From positions 1-64,000 of the forward strand of contig NZ_BATQ01000007.1 of NCBI RefSeq assembly GCF_000739635.1: a DNA stretch of 64,000 nucleotides, given 5' to 3'. This DNA is from Verrucomicrobium sp. BvORR034 (lineage in GTDB: Bacteria; Verrucomicrobiota; Verrucomicrobiia; Verrucomicrobiales; Verrucomicrobiaceae). Made by a program: the position numbers and the translations under genes. The notes beneath the pieces were generated by a model. It saw only the letters and a list, made by a program, of their open reading frames with translations, made no database searches and was not told the DNA's origin. Shown here in pieces: positions 4,287 to 13,217 of this stretch. Numbering within the stretch: position 1 is the first letter of the stretch; each line of letters starts with the position of its first letter.

Positions 4287-5342
4287 TCATGCCCTTGACT
4301 TCAGGTCTGACGTCTGGAGTCTGGCAGTCTGGTGTCTAGTGCATATTTCCTTCATGCCGCGCTCTTTCTCGATCACCTCAAACGCCACCTCCAGAAACTT
4401 CGGAATGAGCGCCATGTTGCTCATGGTATGACGGCTCAGGGCGAAGGTGGTGAAGGAGCCTTTGCCAGCGAGGGCGAGGGGCAGTAGGAGTTGATCAGCC
4501 AGGTGCACGCCGACAGGGGCATCGTTTTCCAGGTACTTGGCCAGGCCTTTGGCGGCGGAGGAGCCGACCTGCTCGGCAGAGCGTCCCATCTGGGCCACGG
4601 AGGAGCAAATTTCTGTGATGTGCTCGAACCGGGCACCCAGCATGACGATGTTGCCAGGGCCGGTGCTTTCGGGCACGGCGCGAACGTTCACGGTATCCGG
4701 TTCCCAGCCCAATGAGCCCAGCACGGTTTTCAGCTCACGTTGGACAATCCCTCCATCGAGGTGGGCGTTGAGCACCGTGCCGAACTTGGTCACCAGATCC
4801 CCGCGTTCATGCAGATCGAGCTTCTTCCACTTCTTCACCGGGGTGATGGAGGCGTGGAGAATTCCGCCGCCCGATTGCATGAAGCCGGGACGGCCAAGGG
4901 CGACGGACGCTTTCACCCCCATGCGGTGTAGCACCGGGAGGAAACACTCTTCAATGAACTCGAACGGCGGAGCGAGCGGGTTGTGGGTGCCACCCTCGAT
5001 GCGCACCGTGCTGGGGCCGGGAGCATGAAGCAGCGCGGGCAGCAGCGTCTGCAGCACCAGGGTGGTGGCCCCGCCGCTGCCGATCGCAAACTGGTAGTCG
5101 CCAGCGCGCACGGGACCCGGACGGAACGTCAGCTCCTGGGAACCCAGATGAGCCCCCTCCACCACGGCACCGCTGATCTCCGCCGCCGCGTTCACACAAG
5201 TCAGGTGCTGCCGCATGAGCCCCGGTTTGGGCCGGGCTCCGCGGATGCAGGTCATGTGGAAGGCTTTGCCGGTGATCAGGGAGAGCGAGAGCGAGCTTCG
5301 GAGAAGCTGGCCGCCGCCTTCAGTGCCGTTGATGGAGAGCAA
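4287..5342 (-). CDS. rtcA: RNA 3'-terminal phosphate cyclase RtcA
   Basis: 351 residues (family about 340). RtcA uses ATP to convert RNA 3'-phosphate ends into 2',3'-cyclic phosphates, the substrate of RtcB. The N-terminus carries the signature INGTEGGGQLLRSSLSLS. The expected nucleophilic His lies in ALSRHTMSN (about residue 304), aligned with the SCHLLTN block of E. coli RtcA, after GVHLADQLLLPLALAGKGSF. It is the last gene of the RNA-repair block, 117 bases downstream of rtcB on the same strand. The last ~15 residues (HQTARLQTSDLKSRA) are encoded by an intergenic repeat, so the ancestral stop may have been earlier. The identification is secure; co-regulation by RtcR is inferred. Confidence 0.97.
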   Translation of the reverse strand: MLSINGTEGGGQLLRSSLSLSLITGKAFHMTCIRGARPKPGLMRQHLTCVNAAAEISGAVVEGAHLGSQELTFRPGPVRAGDYQFAIGSGGATTLVLQTLLPALLHAPGPSTVRIEGGTHNPLAPPFEFIEECFLPVLHRMGVKASVALGRPGFMQSGGGILHASITPVKKWKKLDLHERGDLVTKFGTVLNAHLDGGIVQRELKTVLGSLGWEPDTVNVRAVPESTGPGNIVMLGARFEHITEICSSVAQMGRSAEQVGSSAAKGLAKYLENDAPVGVHLADQLLLPLALAGKGSFTTFALSRHTMSNMALIPKFLEVAFEVIEKERGMKEICTRHQTARLQTSDLKSRA

Positions 5343-5459: not shown

Positions 5460-6974
5460 TTAATCATCCGCTTCGCTCGCATCTTTGATCACGAAGCGGG
5501 CCTTCAGTTTGCAGACCGTTTCTGCCAGACCGGCGGTTTCCACCGAGCGCAGGACTTCGTTGAAATCCTTGTACGCGTTCGGGGCCTCGTCGATCGGGTA
5601 GGTGCGGCAGTTGGTGAGGATGTCGTGGGTCACGAAGTCGGCGTCCACCAGCTTCTGATCCAGGACACGCCCCGCCTGCTTGCGGCCCATGCAGCGCCCG
5701 GCACCGTGGTTCACACTGTAGCAGGACTTCACGGCTCCGGGCTTGGCGACCATGACGACGGAGCCGTCACGCGGGTTGCCAGGCAGGAGGATCGGGTGAC
5801 CGGTCTCATGAAATGGCGTTTCCTTTAACCCAGGGTGCAGGGCCGGGAAGGCGCGGGTGGCTCCCTTGCGGTGCACCCAGGTGTTGCGTCCCTCCACCAG
5901 CTCTTCGCGGGCGATGTTGTGGCTGATGAAGTACACGAGCTCCCCCTGGGTTCCAGGAAGGATTTCCTGAAACGCCTCCAGCACGAGCGAGTTGATGAGC
6001 AGGTGGTTCACGGTGGCGAAGTTCGCCCCCATGGCCATGTCATCAAGGTACGCATTGGCCTCCGGCGAACCGAGCGGTGCATACACGAGCTGGCGGTCAT
6101 CCGCCGGGAACGGCAGCGACCACTGGCGGAAGAAGCTCTCCAGGGACTTGAACTGGCGCGAGGCCAGATCATGACCAAACCCGCGGGACCCGCAGTGGGA
6201 GAGGAAGGCCACATGACCATCCTTGAGACCAAAGGCCTCGGCCGCACGGCGCGCCTCGGGCGATCCGTCCGCAAGCTCTACGCGTTCGCATTCCCCGAAG
6301 TGGTTTCCTCCACCATAGGACCCGAGCTGCTCCACCTTCTTGTCGAAGTTGGGGTAGCCGTTGAATCGGCGCATCTTCTCAAGGCGCTCGATGAGCGTGG
6401 AGACGTTTCCGTCGTGACCGACATGCGCGCTGTCTTCGCAGCGGGCCGTCCATTCCGGCGGGATCCCGAGCGCTTCGCACACTTCCTTGGAGGCACCTTG
6501 GGTCACCACCTTTTCACCGAGGTCCCCATTCACACGACGGGACTTCTTGGCCGTGCGCTGACCGCGGCCGGCACCCGTAGGTGTGCGTTCCACGATGGCA
6601 TTGATGAGGGCACGACGCACCGCCTTGTCGGCGATGGCGTCATCCGGAATGTTCAGCTGGAGCAGGCTCATCGAGCACTTGATATCCACGCCCACCGGGC
6701 CTGGATAGATGTGCGTCGGCGAGACCATAACGCAACCCACCGGAGCCCCGTAGCCAGCATGCGCATCGGGGTTGAGCACGAGATCCGTCACCCCTGGAGC
6801 GGAGCGGGAGTTGAGGGCCTGCGCCAAACATGTGGCGTCGAAGCCGTTGCGGATGGCCTCCGTTCCGATCACGGTGATCGGCTTGCCTTTGCTATCCCGG
6901 GCAGGGAGAATGGCTTCGGCTTCACCAGTGACGTGGAAAGGGGAGATGTGCATTTGATCTGAAGTGTCGGACAT
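5460..6974 (-). CDS. rtcB: RNA-splicing ligase RtcB
   Basis: 504 residues. RtcB is the GTP- and Mn-dependent ligase that joins 2',3'-cyclic-phosphate or 3'-phosphate ends to 5'-OH ends, as produced when tRNAs or rRNA are cut by endonucleases. Metal and active-site motifs are all present: NPDAHAGYGAPVG, GVDIKCSM (metal Cys), GGGNHFGECE, HCGSRGFGHDLA and NHGAGRCMGRKQA, whose His (about residue 420) is the guanylylated residue. The gene follows the HEPN-like gene by 118 bases and precedes rtcA. No truncation or missing residue was seen. The start at 6974 is the first ATG and leaves the usual short N-terminal extension. Confidence 0.97.
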   Translation of the reverse strand: MSDTSDQMHISPFHVTGEAEAILPARDSKGKPITVIGTEAIRNGFDATCLAQALNSRSAPGVTDLVLNPDAHAGYGAPVGCVMVSPTHIYPGPVGVDIKCSMSLLQLNIPDDAIADKAVRRALINAIVERTPTGAGRGQRTAKKSRRVNGDLGEKVVTQGASKEVCEALGIPPEWTARCEDSAHVGHDGNVSTLIERLEKMRRFNGYPNFDKKVEQLGSYGGGNHFGECERVELADGSPEARRAAEAFGLKDGHVAFLSHCGSRGFGHDLASRQFKSLESFFRQWSLPFPADDRQLVYAPLGSPEANAYLDDMAMGANFATVNHLLINSLVLEAFQEILPGTQGELVYFISHNIAREELVEGRNTWVHRKGATRAFPALHPGLKETPFHETGHPILLPGNPRDGSVVMVAKPGAVKSCYSVNHGAGRCMGRKQAGRVLDQKLVDADFVTHDILTNCRTYPIDEAPNAYKDFNEVLRSVETAGLAETVCKLKARFVIKDASEADD

Positions 6975-7092: not shown

Positions 7093-8049
7093 TCACATTG
7101 CGTAGGCTCCTGGCTGGAGAGTTGCGAGTTTGTGTTGCGGCTCATTCCAGAGTTTGTTTCTCCATTCTGTGTAATCCTTTGCGGAGTCGAAGCCGTCATT
7201 GGAACCTTCACCAAAGATGAAGTGATCGTGGAGTCCACCTTTCCATCCAATCACCGGAAAGTGCGCAACAATGCCTTTAGGCTTTGGTGACTTGTAGCAC
7301 GATACCTTTGCGAGTGTTCGGCTGATGGATCTCTCCCAATTTTCAAGACCTACAATTAGTCCTTTCATGCATAAGGGCATGTTCAATTTCTTCGATCTTG
7401 TCTTGGGGACGCGCTTATTGCGAGCCTTGAGGTAAACATCAAACAGTCCACGCTCCGCAGTGAGGGCTAGCCCTACCTCATCTTTCCACTTTGGCCATTC
7501 ACCTCTGTGAACGACGCGGTGTCGCCCTTCGCGGAGACCTGAGAGCCATCGTGAATTGTAGAGCTTGTCTACCTTGCGGAACAAAAGCTCCCTAAGGGGA
7601 TGGGAACCTCTCTCCTTTTTCAATCTATTTCGCAAGCTAGTGAGATCGGGCGTTTCTCTATCTGAAGGAGCTTCTTTGAAGATTAACGCCCAGAGCACAC
7701 AGGCGAGAGCATCAATCGATGAAATGGCCGAAGCAAGGCAAAGATACATGGGGGTTCCTACACTAGTCCATTGATGACGCCCTGTGCAGTTTCCGACGCT
7801 TTCGTAGGCGTAAATTGAAATGCTTTTCAAGCGCATCGCCGCTCTACAATGTTCTTTGATGAACTCAGCCAGCCGTTTGTCTGACGCCAATCTTGAAATA
7901 TCCCCTACTCCATACCCTAAAATGATGGAGTGATATGCAAAATGATCCTTGGTTTCCAAGGGTTGCCCATCCTGCAAACCGAATGCAGTGTCACCCCAGT
8001 GGTCTGGCACCAGATTTCGCAACGAAGTATTGGCGTATGTGAATTGCAT
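7093..8049 (-). CDS. Unknown protein with a HEPN-like Rx4H motif, inside the RNA-repair operon
   Basis: 318 residues from the ATG at 8049. The frame stays open upstream to a TTG at 8133, but that start would overlap the last Y-RNA-like gene, so 8049 is preferred. No family is recognised with confidence. A hydrophobic helix (ISSIDALACVLWALIFKE) is followed by a basic helix containing GLREGRHRVVHRGEW. The R-x4-H in it (about residues 175-182) matches the catalytic signature of HEPN RNases, and the helix-then-RxxxxH order is the HEPN arrangement. Base composition is clearly lower in G+C (near 50%) than its neighbours, suggesting acquisition. It lies between the Y-RNA array and rtcB on the same strand. 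A role as an RNA-cleaving or RNA-binding partner is inference. It could instead be an unrelated inserted gene. Confidence 0.7.
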   Translation of the reverse strand: MQFTYANTSLRNLVPDHWGDTAFGLQDGQPLETKDHFAYHSIILGYGVGDISRLASDKRLAEFIKEHCRAAMRLKSISIYAYESVGNCTGRHQWTSVGTPMYLCLASAISSIDALACVLWALIFKEAPSDRETPDLTSLRNRLKKERGSHPLRELLFRKVDKLYNSRWLSGLREGRHRVVHRGEWPKWKDEVGLALTAERGLFDVYLKARNKRVPKTRSKKLNMPLCMKGLIVGLENWERSISRTLAKVSCYKSPKPKGIVAHFPVIGWKGGLHDHFIFGEGSNDGFDSAKDYTEWRNKLWNEPQHKLATLQPGAYAM

Positions 8050-8124
8050 TGCGGACAATTTTGTTGGGTTGTGAATTTCGGATGTATAGTTCCGAAGTGC
8101 AGCAACGCTGAATGAGAAGGGTGT

Positions 8125-8248
8125 GGGCGGCAAGGAATGGTGAAACGTATTTTTTCCTGCTCTACCATTGAGCTACCCGTGCTGAACCAGCATGAGACGG
8201 GAGTCGAACCCGTAACCAAGTAAGATGTAGTTTCCCCGGCATCCGCCC
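8125..8248 (-). ncRNA. Y-RNA-like gene 5 (YrlA type, permuted tRNA module)
   Basis: Read on the minus strand. The outer stem GGGCGG/CCGCCC (8243-8248 with 8125-8130) is followed by GATGCC and the inner stem GGGGAAAC/GTTTCACC (8230-8237 with 8139-8146, one mismatch), then CTACATC. Between the inner-stem strands lies a tRNA-like module in permuted order: T-arm ACGGGTTCGACTCCCGT (8197-8213), a closed acceptor-like hairpin TGCTGGTTCAGCA (8180-8192), then D-arm GGGTAGCTCAATGGTAGAGC (8159-8178). The outer stem is shorter than in its siblings and GATGCC lacks one A of GAATGCC. A 6-bp hairpin just upstream (about 8246-8262, GCCCGC/GCGGGC) could compete with the outer stem. Confidence 0.8.
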
Positions 8249-8292
8249 GCGCAAAGCGGGCCACGATGTGGCATTGACATGTTTGAAAAAGG

Positions 8293-8426
8293 TGACCGCG
8301 ACAAGGGGTGAAGAAGCTTTGTCGTGCTCTACCGCTGAGCTACCGCAGGGTGTTGAGCCCTGCGAGTGGGGATCGAACCCACGTCCACGCTTTGGTAAAA
8401 GGAGCTCCTTCGGGCATTCGCCGTCA
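8293..8426 (-). ncRNA. Y-RNA-like gene 4 (YrlA type, permuted tRNA module)
   Basis: Minus strand. The outer stem TGACGGCGA/TCGCGGTCA (8418-8426 with 8293-8301, one mismatch) encloses ATGCCC, the Ro60-binding-like internal loop. The inner stem GAAGGAGCT/AGCTTCTTC (8403-8411 with 8310-8318, one G-U) leads into the permuted tRNA module: T-arm GTGGGTTCGATCCCCAC (8366-8382), acceptor hairpin GCAGGG-CTCAACA-CCCTGC (8345-8363) and D-arm GGTAGCTCAGCGGTAGAGC (8326-8344). The T-loop TTCGATC and the D-loop GG pair are the residues that form the tRNA elbow. It lacks the CTACAT box of the other units. Confidence 0.85.
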
Positions 8427-8458
8427 TTGGAGAAATGGATGTTTGAGTCAGAAAAGGT

Positions 8459-8516
8459 GCTGGCGACTAGAGTTTGCGAAACACTCCGTATGTAGTTTCG
8501 ATGGCATTCGTCAGCG
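8459..8516 (-). ncRNA. Y-RNA-like gene 3 (short, no tRNA module)
   Basis: Minus strand, about 58 nt. The outer stem GCTGACGA/TCGCCAGC (8508-8515 with 8459-8466, one A-C mismatch) encloses ATGCCAT, the inner stem CGAAAC/GTTTCG, and a loop that starts TACATACGG. It has the same stem, GAATGCC box and ACTACAT box as the larger units but no T-arm or D-arm. It may be a minimal Y RNA or a decayed copy that lost its tRNA module. Confidence 0.65.
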
Positions 8517-8536
8517 TTTTGGGGATGGAAAGGGGT

Positions 8537-8667
8537 GACGATGACTAGGGTTTGAGGAACAGACTCTGCTGCTCTACCACTGAGCTACCGCCTGTATTGC
8601 TACAGAGGGGCGGGAGTCGAACCCGCGACCGGCAGATTGAGATGTAGTTCCTCGGGCATTCATCGTC
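8537..8667 (-). ncRNA. Y-RNA-like gene 2 (YrlA type, permuted tRNA module with GCAA-capped acceptor)
   Basis: Minus strand, the clearest unit. The outer stem GACGATGA/TCATCGTC is perfect (8660-8667 with 8537-8544). The box ATGCCC is followed by the inner stem GAGGAAC/GTTCCTC and CTACATC. The module reads T-arm GCGGGTTCGACTCCCGC (8610-8626), acceptor hairpin CTGTA-GCAA-TACAG (8592-8605, a GNRA tetraloop seals the stem where a normal tRNA has its two ends), then D-arm GCGGTAGCTCAGTGGTAGAGC (8571-8591). The Ro60-binding stem occupies the position of the anticodon arm. Salmonella YrlA is known to fold as such a tRNA mimic. Confidence 0.88.
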
Positions 8668-8696
8668 GTTTGGGGGAAAATCAAGAAGGGGGGATT

Positions 8697-8769
8697 GGAG
8701 GCTGGTGACAAAGGGGTTAATGAGACAGAACAGTTTGCAATGTAGTCTCAAAGGCATTCACCAGCCTCC
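8697..8769 (-). ncRNA. Y-RNA-like gene 1 (short, no tRNA module)
   Basis: Minus strand, 73 nt, starting 26 bases after the Ro60 stop codon. It has a perfect 12-bp outer stem GGAGGCTGGTGA/TCACCAGCCTCC (8758-8769 with 8697-8708), the box ATGCCT, the inner stem TGAGAC/GTCTCA, and a loop beginning TACATTGC. The GGCTGGTGAATGC strand looks like the Ro60-binding 5' strand of animal Y RNAs, a resemblance judged from memory. There is no tRNA-like module, so it is comparable to the shorter YrlB partner in the Salmonella locus. Confidence 0.75.
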
Positions 8770-8795
8770 AAAGGGTTGTTGTGAGAGTGCGCTGG

Positions 8796-10364
8796 TTAGA
8801 GCGGCACCTGGTTGATCTCGCCGACCCAGTGTTCCGGCCCCAGTTCACCCCGGGCGAAGGCGGCGATCACCTCAAAGACCGAGTCCGAGAACCCGCCGAT
8901 GTTGAGGATGTCCTTTTGTTCCTTCGCTTGCGTAGTGGTGTAGGGCTGGATGTCCAGGCACACGAGCCGTGCTTGCGGGTTACTCTGCTTGAAGAGTGAC
9001 CATTCCGCCATGGTGCGGGTCGGGCTTCCGCCAAACCGGCCGTGAGCAGGTGTATCCATCCAAGATTCGTTGTCCGAGACATAGATGACCAGGTCTGCCT
9101 GAGCCTTCTGGCGGTTGAGTTCCGCCATGGGCGCGCTGCAGTTGGTTCCGCCCGAGGGCAGGGCCATGAGCTTTTCAGCATTGGTCATCACGGAGTCACG
9201 CGGGTTCAGGGTCGCTGGCACCACGTTGTCGGAGAACGGCAGCACCACAGAGTTGCGGTTCTGACGCAGGAGGCATGCGGAGACCAGGGCGGCAACGTGC
9301 AGGCACGTCACGGCCGAGGTGGCACCCTTGCGGTAGCCGGTTACGGCGGAACGCATGGAGCCGGACACGTCCGGGCAGATGATGACCTTGCCGTTCACTT
9401 GGGGCACGTTGGCCGTGGCGTGTTCCATGGCGTCCTGGAGGGCGTCACGGATCTCCGCCGGCACATCCTGCCCAGCGCTGGTGTAGGCCATCAACAACTG
9501 GTACGGAAAGGCGCGGGCGCGCTTCACCTGAGTCTCATTGCGGAGCCGGTCTGCCACGAGGGAGACGATCTGCTTGTCTTCAAACACACCGTGCCGGGCA
9601 AAGGTGTTCAAGTTCATGCGGGTCATCTGCCAGGGTGCCCGACGGGCAATGGACTTCCACTGGTCCGATGTAAGCGGCAGGGCCGTCAGCATCTGGAAAG
9701 GCACATCCGGCACGGGTCCCTGGCGGTCCTTCTTCCAGGCCTCGAACTCACGTACGATGGCCGGGAGGAGATCTGCCGGGTGCTCACGCTCGAGGAGATA
9801 ACCATAGAGGGCGGCGCGCGCGGCGGTGGCCGGGCGGGGGTGCACCATCTTGATGATGTCTGCCAGGGACGGGGACTGGCCCACGTCGGCACGGAAGAGG
9901 TCTTCATCCCGGCGGGACTCGAGCCAGCGACGCACGAGCCGCTTCGGCAGCGTCCCAAGGGACTTGCGACCGGTCACGCCGGAGCGCAGGATCTGGACGA
10001 AGTTGCGGAGCATCTTGGCGTCGTCAATCACGCGATCGAAGATCAGCTCCAGCCGGTCCACATCCCGGGAGGCCAGCACCGCGCAGAGCAGCGCGGGCGT
10101 GTCCTTCATGAGGCCCTTCTTGCGGCAGTAGAGAGCGGTGCGGGCCAGGAAGTCCGTGGGCGTCTTGACCGCGAGCTGCAGCACGGTTTCGAGCTGAGTT
10201 TCGGCCGAGGCGTAGTAGGTCGCGTTAAGGCATCCCGTGGCGGCGAGCTGGGCCAGGGCAGCCCGGTCTTCGAGCTGGTAGGCCACACCGCCGGCCTCGT
10301 TCATCCCCGTGGTACGGGGTAGAAGGGCACCGGGTTGGGATTGGAAGAGTTGCTTGTTGGCCAT
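8796..10364 (-). CDS. rsr: Ro60-like TROVE domain protein (Rsr)
   Basis: 522 residues, the usual bacterial Ro60 length. Ro60 is a ring of HEAT-like repeats that binds Y RNAs on its outside and single-stranded ends of misfolded RNAs in its central hole, often together with nucleases such as PNPase. The N-terminal ~300 residues are the helical TROVE repeats (TDFLARTALYCRKKGLMKDTP is typical). From about residue 325 there is a von Willebrand A-like domain with an intact MIDAS, PDVSGSMRS, followed by SGGTNCSAP and VYVSDNESW-type blocks. It starts 23 bases after the slipin stop and is followed at once by the Y-RNA genes, the same gene order logic as rsr-yrlBA-rtcBA in Salmonella. Confidence 0.95.
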   Translation of the reverse strand: MANKQLFQSQPGALLPRTTGMNEAGGVAYQLEDRAALAQLAATGCLNATYYASAETQLETVLQLAVKTPTDFLARTALYCRKKGLMKDTPALLCAVLASRDVDRLELIFDRVIDDAKMLRNFVQILRSGVTGRKSLGTLPKRLVRRWLESRRDEDLFRADVGQSPSLADIIKMVHPRPATAARAALYGYLLEREHPADLLPAIVREFEAWKKDRQGPVPDVPFQMLTALPLTSDQWKSIARRAPWQMTRMNLNTFARHGVFEDKQIVSLVADRLRNETQVKRARAFPYQLLMAYTSAGQDVPAEIRDALQDAMEHATANVPQVNGKVIICPDVSGSMRSAVTGYRKGATSAVTCLHVAALVSACLLRQNRNSVVLPFSDNVVPATLNPRDSVMTNAEKLMALPSGGTNCSAPMAELNRQKAQADLVIYVSDNESWMDTPAHGRFGGSPTRTMAEWSLFKQSNPQARLVCLDIQPYTTTQAKEQKDILNIGGFSDSVFEVIAAFARGELGPEHWVGEINQVPL

Positions 10365-10387: not shown

Positions 10388-11119
10388 TCAAATTCCGGAC
10401 TGGACCTTGGAGGCCAGTTTGTCGCTTTCGGTGAGTCCCAACACGAGGGTGGTGGCCTTGCCGGCACCGATCTCGCCGAGGGTCTGGAGGTAGCGGAGCT
10501 GGAGCAGCTCCGGGTGGTCGCGCATGAGTTTCGCGGCGTTGGCCAGCGTACGGATGGCGGCAGTTTCGGCCCGGGCCTTTTCCAGCGAGGCGTTTGCCTC
10601 CTGGCGCTGCTGCAGTGCGGCCATGAAGGCCTTCTTGAGCTCTGGAGGCAGCATCACGTCCCGGATCTCCACCCGCTCGATTTCCAACCCGAGGGCTGCG
10701 GCACGAGGGCGGAGGGCTTCCAGCAAGGCCGAGCCGTGAGACGACTTGGATTTGAGGAAATCTTCCGAGGTGTTGGATCCCACGAGCTCGCGGAGCGCGA
10801 GTTGCACTTCCACATAGAGGGTGGCGGCGGGGTCCGCGACGGCGCGGTAGCTCACCAGGGCATCCGCCACGCGGTAGAGCAGCACCGTGCTGATCTTGAG
10901 CGCGACCTGGTCCGAGGTAAGAACGTCCTGACCCTGTGTGATGACCTGCTGGATGCGGAGGTCATACTGCACCACCTGGTGGCCGCCCTGCCAGAGACGG
11001 TAGCGTCCAGGAGCAAGCGGGCGGACAAACGCTCCATGCTGGAACAGCAGTGCCGCACGAGAGTCCGGAATAGAGAAAGAAAATCCGGCTGCGAGGTGGA
11101 GGGTTTCGATGAGGGCCAT
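10388..11119 (-). CDS. Slipin-like SPFH/band 7 protein
   Basis: 243 residues from the ATG at 11119. The frame is open further upstream to 11500, but that extension crosses the sigma-54 promoter and has no coding character. The protein begins MALIETLHLAAGFSFSIPDS and continues into an SPFH domain (GQDVLTSDQVALKISTVLLY, then LRELVGSNTSEDFL), ending with a helical Ala/Glu-rich segment. SPFH proteins oligomerise on membranes, but no strong transmembrane helix is visible at this N-terminus. Slipins are repeatedly found next to RtcB/Ro60 in bacterial RNA-repair operons, where their role is unsettled. It is the first gene of the block, with a leader of about 290 bases. Confidence 0.88.
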   Translation of the reverse strand: MALIETLHLAAGFSFSIPDSRAALLFQHGAFVRPLAPGRYRLWQGGHQVVQYDLRIQQVITQGQDVLTSDQVALKISTVLLYRVADALVSYRAVADPAATLYVEVQLALRELVGSNTSEDFLKSKSSHGSALLEALRPRAAALGLEIERVEIRDVMLPPELKKAFMAALQQRQEANASLEKARAETAAIRTLANAAKLMRDHPELLQLRYLQTLGEIGAGKATTLVLGLTESDKLASKVQSGI

Positions 11120-11418
11120 GGGAGTTTGAGTGAAAGGGAAGATGCGGAGTATTTTGAGGTGCCTCACCCGCAGAGGCCGCGGCTTGGTGCGGAGGGCGGT
11201 CCGGCTGACCTTCGGGACTTCCGAAGGTGCCTGAACCGTCCTGCAGGGCACCGGGCCGTTGCTTCCATTCCCGGAGGAACTTCGGCAGGGTCTGCGGATG
11301 AGGCAGGGTAGGGATTGCTCCCTTCCAAGTTTCAGTTGGTACCCAAGTGCTCCGATGTGCGTCTTCGTTGGCGATTGCCGCAGAGTCTGCGTGAAGCGTT
11401 GGGGTTGTGTCTTCCTAT

Positions 11419-11434
11419 TGCCAGGAGCGTGCCA
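11419..11434 (-). promoter_or_regulatory. Sigma-54 promoter for the RNA-repair operon
   Basis: On the minus strand the 16 bases read TGGCACGCTCCTGGCA, against the consensus TGGCACG-N4-TTGCA. The -24 GG and -12 GC are both present with exact 12-base spacing, and there is one mismatch. A start site near 11408 would give a ~290-base leader before slipin. RtcR, encoded divergently, is a sigma-54 activator, which supports the call. An overlapping second TGGCAC lies 10 bases upstream but has the wrong spacing. Confidence 0.75.
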
Positions 11435-11548
11435 AGTCGTGCCAACTGGACCCATCAACGCGCTGGAACCCTTGATTTCACTAGGGAAGAAAGCGCACAA
11501 TTATTTTTCAGGCCCGTTTTGGCCTATCGAGAAAATCCAATCTTGTTT

Positions 11549-11570
11549 ATATACTGGGATAAGAGTATAT
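11549..11570. promoter_or_regulatory. Candidate RtcR binding palindrome
   Basis: Inverted repeat ATATACT (11549-11555) / AGTATAT (11564-11570), AT-rich in a GC-rich setting, about 115-130 bases upstream of the sigma-54 promoter and just before the rtcR start. That is the usual distance for an enhancer site. TTGTTT (11543-11548) and TATATC (11566-11571), 17 bases apart, could also be a sigma-70 promoter for rtcR, giving a nearly leaderless message. Both readings are inference. Confidence 0.4.
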
Positions 11571-11579
11571 CCAGACATC

Positions 11580-13217
11580 GTGTCTGCTCATCGCCCAACC
11601 GTTGTCATTGGCTTTATTGGCGTCCAACTGGACCGCGCTCGGGGTCCGGAGCGCTGGTCGAGGTGGCGTCCGACTGTCGGTCTGTGCCAGCATGAGGACC
11701 TGCTGGTGAGCCGGTTCGAGCTGATCTTCGATCCCCGGCATGAGCCGCTGGCCAGGGAGGTGATGGCGGACATGAGAACTTGCTCCCCGGAGACGCAGGT
11801 GAACCTGGTGCCGATGCCCGTGCGGGATCCCTGGGACTTTCAGGAGGTATATGAGGCGCTCTATGACTGGGTGCGGGCCTATCCTTTTGATGCCGAGGCG
11901 GAGGACTACCTCATTCATCTCACCACGGGCACGCACGTGGCGCAGATCTGCTGGTACCTGCTCAATGAGGCCCGGTATCTGCCGGCGCGCATTCTGCAGA
12001 CGTCGCCCCCGCGGGGGACGAATCGCGGGGACACCCCGGCGGGCGAGTACTCGATCATCGATCTGGACCTCTCCAAGTACGATCGCATTGCGACGCGCTT
12101 CGCCCAGGAGCAGGAGCAGACGTTGGACTTCCTGAAGAGCGGCATCGCCACACGCAACCCGGCGTTCAACCGGCTCATCGGTCAGATCGAGCAGGTGGCA
12201 GTAAATTCCTCGCACCCGATGTTGCTCACGGGCCCGACCGGGGCGGGCAAGTCCCTGCTGGCCAGCCGCATCTATGAACTAAGGCAGCAGCGCTCCGGGC
12301 TGGCGGGAAGGTTCGTGGAAGTAAACTGCGCCACCCTGCGCGGGGACCAGGCCATGTCCGCGCTCTTTGGCCATCGCAAGGGCTCCTTCACCGGAGCCCA
12401 AACGGACCGGCCCGGTTTGCTGAAGGAGGCGGACAAGGGGCTTATCTTTCTGGATGAAATCGGCGAGCTGGGCGCGGATGAGCAGGCCATGTTGCTGCGT
12501 GCGGTGGAGGACAAGACCTTCCTCCCGCTGGGGTCGGACAAGCCGGTGCGCAGCGACTTCCAGCTCATCGCAGGGACGAACCGCGACCTGCGGGCAGAGG
12601 TGGTTCGAGGAACTTTCCGTGAGGACCTGCTGGCCCGCATCAACCTTTGGACCTTCGCCCTGCCGGGGCTGGCAGAGCGGCGGGAGGACATCGGGCCGAA
12701 CCTCGACTACGAGTTGGAGCGGCTGTCCCGCGGCCAGCGCAAGCAGGTGCGGTTCAACAAGGAGGCGCGCGACCGGTTTCTCAAGTTCGCCCTGAGCGCC
12801 GAGGCCAGATGGAGTGCGAACTTCCGCGATCTCAACGCGGCGGTAACCCGCCTGGCCACCCTGGCACCGCGAGGTCGTATCACGGAGGAGTGTGTGGAGG
12901 CTGAGATCGGTCGTCTGAAGGACGCCTGGCTACGACCCGGGGAGGAGGGGGAGGCGACCGTGCCTTGCAAGCTCCTTCCTTCCTTGCTGGGTGAAGAGGC
13001 CTGTGCGGAGATCGACCCCTTTGACCTAGTGCAACTGGAGCATGTGGTGCAGGTATGCCGGGATTCCGTTTCGTTGTCGGATGCCGGGCGGAAGCTCTTC
13101 ACGGTGTCGCGGAAATCGAAGGCGAAGTCCAATGATGCCGATCGCCTGAAGAAGTATCTGGCGCGGTTTGAGTTGAGTTGGGCCCGCTGCGCGGGAGACA
13201 CAAGACGTAAGACCTGA
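11580..13217 (+). CDS. rtcR: Sigma-54 dependent activator RtcR
   Basis: 545 residues from a GTG at 11580. The frame is open back to 11259, but homology begins here: RPTVVIGFIGVQLDRARG followed by RWSRWRPT parallels the start of E. coli RtcR (532 residues). Residues 1-185 are the CARF-like sensor, with EDYLIHLTTGTHVAQICW conserved. The AAA+ domain follows: Walker A GPTGAGKS (about 219), the sigma-54 contact loop GSFTGA (about 270, in place of GAFTGA), Walker B LIFLDEIGEL, and an arginine-finger region. The C-terminus is the DNA-binding region. The domain is known to sense RNA ends or tRNA fragments. The final CAGDTRRKT tail comes from a dispersed repeat. It is divergent from the operon it should control. 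Confidence 0.95.
   Translation: MSAHRPTVVIGFIGVQLDRARGPERWSRWRPTVGLCQHEDLLVSRFELIFDPRHEPLAREVMADMRTCSPETQVNLVPMPVRDPWDFQEVYEALYDWVRAYPFDAEAEDYLIHLTTGTHVAQICWYLLNEARYLPARILQTSPPRGTNRGDTPAGEYSIIDLDLSKYDRIATRFAQEQEQTLDFLKSGIATRNPAFNRLIGQIEQVAVNSSHPMLLTGPTGAGKSLLASRIYELRQQRSGLAGRFVEVNCATLRGDQAMSALFGHRKGSFTGAQTDRPGLLKEADKGLIFLDEIGELGADEQAMLLRAVEDKTFLPLGSDKPVRSDFQLIAGTNRDLRAEVVRGTFREDLLARINLWTFALPGLAERREDIGPNLDYELERLSRGQRKQVRFNKEARDRFLKFALSAEARWSANFRDLNAAVTRLATLAPRGRITEECVEAEIGRLKDAWLRPGEEGEATVPCKLLPSLLGEEACAEIDPFDLVQLEHVVQVCRDSVSLSDAGRKLFTVSRKSKAKSNDADRLKKYLARFELSWARCAGDTRRKT

Follow-up and report, generated by a model that had tools for sequence, protein, structure and literature searches.

An array of five bacterial Y RNA genes in a putative RtcR/sigma-54-controlled RNA-repair operon of Verrucomicrobium sp. 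BvORR034

In the 64,000-nt stretch of the Verrucomicrobium sp. BvORR034 genome analysed in this work (hereafter the window), we found the gene layout SPFH-ro60-(five Y RNA units)-ORF-rtcB-rtcA, divergent from rtcR. The protein-coding genes and the promoter site, in window coordinates, are:

4287-5342, minus strand: rtcA, RNA 3'-phosphate cyclase (Pfam, 2e-71)
5460-6974, minus strand: rtcB, RNA ligase (Pfam, 4e-100)
7093-8049, minus strand: 318-aa ORF between the array and rtcB (not at the same place in the related genomes G002 and G003)
8796-10364, minus strand: ro60 (rsr), with TROVE and Ro60 vWA domains (PF05731, 28.2 with a cut-off of 23; PF25045, 74.4 with a cut-off of 27.7)
10388-11119, minus strand: SPFH/Band 7 gene between the promoter and ro60 (Pfam Band_7, 4.7e-30; ORF open to 11500, likely start ATG near 11119)
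11419-11434, minus strand: sigma-54 -24/-12 site TGGCACGCTCCTGGCA (one mismatch to TGGCACN5TTGCW)
11259-13217, plus strand: rtcR, divergent sigma-54 activator (NCBIfam RtcR, 810 bits with a cut-off of 650; also Pfam; family match from near 11595)

The RNA-repair setting, which had been proposed in an earlier note made from the sequence alone, is borne out by these Pfam and NCBIfam matches and by a gene order that is conserved in relatives across the order. As in RtcR-controlled rtcBA operons, a divergent rtcR, both rtcB and rtcA, and a sigma-54 promoter site are present; unlike in those operons, an SPFH gene, ro60, five Y RNAs, and the 318-aa ORF are added. The SPFH gene also precedes ro60 in G002 and is missing from that place in G003. 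Against the NCBIfam Rsr equivalog, the ro60 product scores 96, under the cut-off of 900. The 318-aa ORF has no Pfam, NCBIfam, or PADLOC match; distant homologs (31-39%) occur at other places in three relatives.

In each of the 18 loci examined, the best site upstream of ro60 was of this sigma-54 type and had one to three mismatches. The sites of relatives mostly read TTGGCACG and then, at the correct distance, (A/G)GCA or GGCA; if no SPFH gene separates them from ro60, they are 48-59 nt ahead of it. Within the array, a simple scan found no sigma-70-like or terminator-like sites. The spacers between units are short (about 20-40 nt in the window; median 22 nt across loci, n = 187) and poor in G (17% vs 28% in the units). 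These spacers and the negative scan fit a single transcript that starts at the sigma-54 promoter and would later be cut.

For the array itself, two covariance models were built only from Ro60 loci outside the genus, one from 32 short units (R1) and the other from 40 long units (R2). Reading of the sequence, together with a search for an outer stem, a box, and an inner stem, confirmed five separate units on the minus strand between ro60 and rtcB (8771-8123), as had been noted before:

8695-8771, minus strand: U1, short Ro60-proximal Y RNA (R1, 54 bits, E 3.6e-13; fold z -5.9)
8537-8667, minus strand: U2, long YrlA-type Y RNA with a permuted tRNA-like domain (R2, 112.8 bits, E 4.5e-31; Rfam YrlA, 66.8 bits)
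8571-8626, minus strand: tRNA-like domain of U2, with T-arm GCGGG-TTCGACT-CCCGC, acceptor-like hairpin, and D-arm TAGCTCAGTGGTAGAGC (sequence and alignment)
8459-8515, minus strand: U3, minimal Y RNA of 57 nt (R1, 38.9 bits, E 8e-9; alignment)
8293-8426, minus strand: U4, long Y RNA with a tRNA-like domain and GAGCTCC in place of ACTACAT (R2, 94.1 bits; Rfam YrlA, 45.5 bits)
8123-8250, minus strand: U5, long Y RNA with a tRNA-like domain and a GGATGC box (R2, 97.4 bits; Rfam YrlA, 63.8 bits; ends taken from the R2 match)

In all five, an outer stem is combined with a (G/A)ATGC box and an inner stem. The division into two short (U1 and U3) and three long units (U2, U4, and U5) and the presence of ACTACAT in four (U1, U2, U3, and U5, but not U4) agree with the earlier description. 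U1 has a 14-bp outer stem (TTGGAGGCTGGTGA/TCACCAGCCTCCAA) that is identical in two sister species, a GAATGC box, an inner stem, and an ACTACAT loop, and it lacks a tRNA-like domain. The long units hold a feature absent from the earlier note, namely, a permuted tRNA-like domain in the order T-arm, acceptor-like hairpin, D-arm. The stems of the units had also been said to keep their pairing. They are indeed paired, but two of the quoted stems are imperfect in this genome: GCTGACGA/TCGCCAGC of U3 has one A.C mismatch and TGACGGCGA/TCGCGGTCA of U4 has one G.G mismatch. At both sites, pairing is perfect in the sister species. The outer stem of U5 is shorter than in BvORR106.

The proposed identity as Y RNAs was upheld by the models from other genera, which match all five units at 39-113 bits (E 8e-9 to 4e-31 in the 64-kb window). 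R1 detected U1, U5 (39.3 bits), and U3, with the next-best match in the window at 15.3 bits (E 0.06); R2 detected U2, U5, and U4. Over the whole 8.6-Mb genome, the five units were the only matches to R1 and R2. These scores, obtained with models of other genera and unique genome-wide, argue that the units are not chance occurrences. Three features expected of bacterial Y RNAs were all found: a Ro60 gene directly upstream of the array, a stem of the 5' and 3' ends that holds the conserved Ro60-binding internal loop with AATGC opposite CTTG, and a tRNA-like domain in at least one unit.

Both folds covary strongly. In the short fold, 96.6% of alignment cells are paired (73% in shuffles) and 14 of 15 pairs show double-sided change; the corresponding values for the long fold are 97.5% and 22 of 31 pairs. 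None of 500 shuffles reached covariation as high, and in both folds the pairing was lost when the partner was shifted by 1-3 columns. Compensatory change, claimed earlier from comparison among the five units, is real in cross-species alignments; the stem differences among the units themselves are differences between old paralogs and not compensation. Single-sequence folding of U3 (z -0.6) and U5 (z -0.4) was no better than that of shuffled sequences.

The covariance-model check against Rfam that had been proposed gave a mixed outcome. At the gathering threshold, Rfam had no match in the window. By E-value, U2, U5, and U4 match YrlA (RF02553) over its full length (E 7e-15 to 1e-8) at scores below the gathering score of 69, so none of the three qualifies as a YrlA member by that score. 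U1 and U3 match no Rfam family and have no YrlB (RF02565) match at E<=10. The YrlA cut-off is passed by only 9 of 96 relatives, although 20 of the 96 have Ro60 and arrays; the cut-off is therefore strict for this clade, which accounts for the missing hits at threshold.

The association between these RNAs and Ro60 is tight. Among the 96 relatives, this Ro60 occurs in 20, and YrlA matches of at least 50 bits occur in exactly those 20; the highest YrlA match in a genome lacking this Ro60 is 46 bits. Weak YrlA matches were also considered in other families of the phylum, and all seven that were checked proved to be tandem identical tRNA-Asp or tRNA-Gly pairs. Such tandem tRNAs (L060-L063, L066, L071, and L076) are a trap for genome annotation: the second half of one tRNA, joined to the first half of the following one, imitates the permuted domain and yields Rfam YrlA scores of up to about 45 bits. 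Separately, the Myxococcus phage Mx1 (L158, OR576727.2) encodes a Ro60 that is 51% identical to that of the window; its surroundings are rich in tRNAs and include a VWA protein and a peptidyl-tRNA hydrolase. No Y RNA match was listed around this phage gene.

Five units in a row had been presented as exceptional, and this claim did not hold. We collected 80 named Ro60 loci from GTDB genomes of several phyla, 69 of which have at least 1.5 kb of downstream sequence. The counts rest on covariance models, since a pattern-based finder gave an opposite-strand background of 143 per 283 kb. The 69 loci have a median of four units (zero units in 1 locus, two in 7, three in 11, four in 29, five in 12, six in 5, seven in 3, and ten in 1), and with five or more units at 21 of them, five is ordinary here. 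In Verrucomicrobiota, Planctomycetota, and Acidobacteriota, loci with this type of Ro60 normally have several units, whereas the experimentally studied species in the literature searched have one or two Y RNAs. In one Akkermansiaceae-group genome (G384), Ro60 is followed by nine consecutive Y RNA units (L054:745-2356, minus strand), the Ro60-proximal one being a weak YrlB match.

In 17 related loci, we found a second permutation, in which the tRNA-like domain is hung by its D-loop rather than by the anticodon stem, and the anticodon stem is capped. The order is D-stem 3' half (GGTAGAGC), short-loop anticodon-like hairpin, T-arm, acceptor hairpin, and D-stem 5' half (TAGCTCA), which implies that a whole tRNA is hung from the Y stem through the D-loop. 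This class is defined by one alignment (A4) and the model built from it (R3), which includes ten units from Verrucomicrobiota, Planctomycetota, Acidobacteriota, and the isolate Rhabdaerophilum sp. SD176; seven further units come from held-out loci:

Units in R3: L088:7731-7857, L090:7719-7843, L092:3818-3943, L097:9077-9201, L105:7819-7962, L106:7654-7795, L115:7985-8103, L133:7659-7799, L152:7900-8030, L154:8122-8257
Held-out units: L109:6436-6560, L122:8149-8276, L150:2628-2751, L107:3611-3741, L131:3024-3149, L141:4874-5004, L103:4422-4558

In the alignment (n = 10), 88% of cells pair (73.5% in shuffles), with double-sided change in 25 of 35 pairs. R3 scores the seven held-out units at 73-100 bits, and the anticodon-hung model gives them 40-56. 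L109 shows a compensated D-stem change (GAGU/ACUC), and the closing D-stem appears in the predicted folds of five of the six units examined. Most of the units tested with Rfam were missed or fell below threshold. The R3 search found no unit of this class in the window. We found no description of this permutation in the literature searched, a search that did not include the main Y RNA papers. Other units carry a T-arm only, or a hairpin, T-arm, and acceptor hairpin but no D-arm (L149:7590-7669, L123:7827-7928, L147:7588-7696, L155:7650-7757, and L153:3934-4039); these intermediates form a graded series of tRNA mimics inside the arrays.

According to published work on the Rsr/Y RNA/PNPase machine and on tRNA-like YrlA, Y RNAs act as gates of Ro60 and are able to tether PNPase, and tRNA-modifying enzymes recognise the tRNA-like domain (PMC8394870; PMC4726728). 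In Salmonella, tRNA fragments switch the operon on through RtcR (PMC7790460). For the role of Ro60 and bacterial Y RNAs in RNA repair, the Salmonella study and a review give possibilities only (PMC7790460; PMC8394870). We consider it probable that the locus encodes five bacterial Y RNAs as a polycistronic array in an RtcR/sigma-54-controlled RNA-repair operon, in which the short units would be Ro60-docked gates and the long units gates with a handle. All five share one Ro60-type docking module, composed of the outer stem, AATGC internal loop, inner stem, and CTTG strand. In the proposed sequence of events, RNA damage would lead RtcR to turn the operon on, cleavage of the transcript within the short spacers would free the Y RNAs, and each Y RNA would dock on the Ro60 ring. 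By analogy with other species, the two short units may act as plain gates over the RNA-binding surface of the ring, and the three long units may add a handle that recruits tRNA-binding proteins, for which PNPase is the known precedent. The long units could in this way give Ro60 several alternative partners. The wiring of the operon is supported by its predicted genes and promoter site; processing, docking, and partner choice of the Y RNAs are inferred.

The units may not be interchangeable. Across three Verrucomicrobium species, units at the same position are 81-98% identical, compared with 58-65% between positions in one genome, and the U2 and last-unit lineages also occur in Prosthecobacter-like genera. 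In U4, the docking module is nearly constant across species, and the tRNA-like part varies, its pairs being kept by compensation (e.g., GTGGG/CCCAC to ATGGG/CCCAT). The position of U3 is occupied in G003 by a complete tRNA-like unit (L032:6835-6963; R2, 77.6 bits), whereas it is 57 nt in the window genome and BvORR106. The array positions are old, separately conserved lineages, and these lineages, the compensation in U4, and the U3 difference in G003 argue for retained, separate roles. A set of adaptors that differ in their partners, as suggested earlier, is plausible, as the positions are old and separately conserved and the effector modules differ in type. The main competitor is a dosage effect, in which all five Y RNAs saturate Ro60 alike and their differences are drift. 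The common docking module, a copy number that varies from 2 to 10 between loci, and the weakening of three of the five outer stems relative to a sister species (A.C in U3, G.G in U4, and shortening in U5) would fit such redundancy; the same weakened pairing indicates that some units could be decaying, possibly under relaxed constraint. However, the positions have not been homogenised, two lineages reach across genera, and U4 changes its tRNA-like part with compensation while keeping its docking module, so we judge a pure dosage effect unlikely.

A less probable alternative, to which we give little credence, is control in cis: Ro60 would bind hairpins of its own transcript and thereby control how stable the mRNA is or how rtcBA is expressed, with free Y RNAs being minor. 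All units lie within the operon transcript, U1 with its 14-bp stem comes right after the stop codon of ro60, and stems are longer overall in the Ro60-proximal units (median 10.5 vs 9 bp, p 0.001). Such control has no need for tRNA-like domains, though, and known bacterial Y RNAs function as free RNPs (PMC8394870; PMC4726728); in some Acidobacteria, units are found upstream of ro60 as well. Chance or decayed remnants of a tRNA-gene cluster, which the T-arm and D-arm sequences and the tandem-tRNA matches elsewhere in the phylum might bring to mind, are refuted by covariation and synteny and have next to no probability, as ARAGORN finds no tRNA in the array, covariation ties the Y stems, the AATGC box, and the tRNA-like arms into a single structure, and the link to Ro60 is strict. 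A cloverleaf with an anticodon and a free acceptor end is absent from the array; in the long units, a hairpin closes the acceptor end and the Y stem replaces the anticodon stem.

Compared with known systems, U2, U4, and U5 resemble YrlA of the Salmonella rsr-yrlBA-rtcBA locus in their docking module, in the order of T-arm, acceptor hairpin, and D-arm, in their full-length alignment to the model, and in an array that adjoins ro60 and rtcBA. They differ from it in having three copies instead of one, in Rfam scores from just below to well below the gathering score, and in the lack of ACTACAT in U4. U1 and U3 are like YrlB in being short, Ro60-adjacent, and free of a tRNA-like domain beside YrlA-type units; unlike YrlB, they have no Rfam match, U1 has its 14-bp outer stem, and U3 is only 57 nt. 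The locus shares a Ro60 ortholog and Y RNA with the RYPER (Ro60/Rsr-Y RNA-PNPase) of Deinococcus radiodurans, with a presumed tether role, but differs in having several Y RNAs of two types inside an RtcR/sigma-54 RNA-repair operon. Contact with PNPase is presumed here by analogy.

Taken together, the five-unit array belongs to the known kind of bacterial Y RNA, and its size is ordinary in this branch. A more speculative reading, to which we would give slightly less than an even chance, is that the arrays are modular, ordered adaptor sets. Each would have a short head unit followed by effectors that range from none, via a T-arm hairpin, to a full tRNA mimic hung by the anticodon stem (window) or the D-loop (sister arrays), and Ro60 would gain a different tRNA-binding partner from each position. 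If this is true, hanging the domain by its D-loop would be a second way of mimicking a tRNA, one that has no description so far. The D-loop-hung variant offers a second tRNA-mimic topology for structural work. With its five separately conserved Y RNAs in a single damage-regulated operon, this genus allows the question of the Ro60 partner to be put unit by unit, including whether the short units are gates and the long units are tethers.
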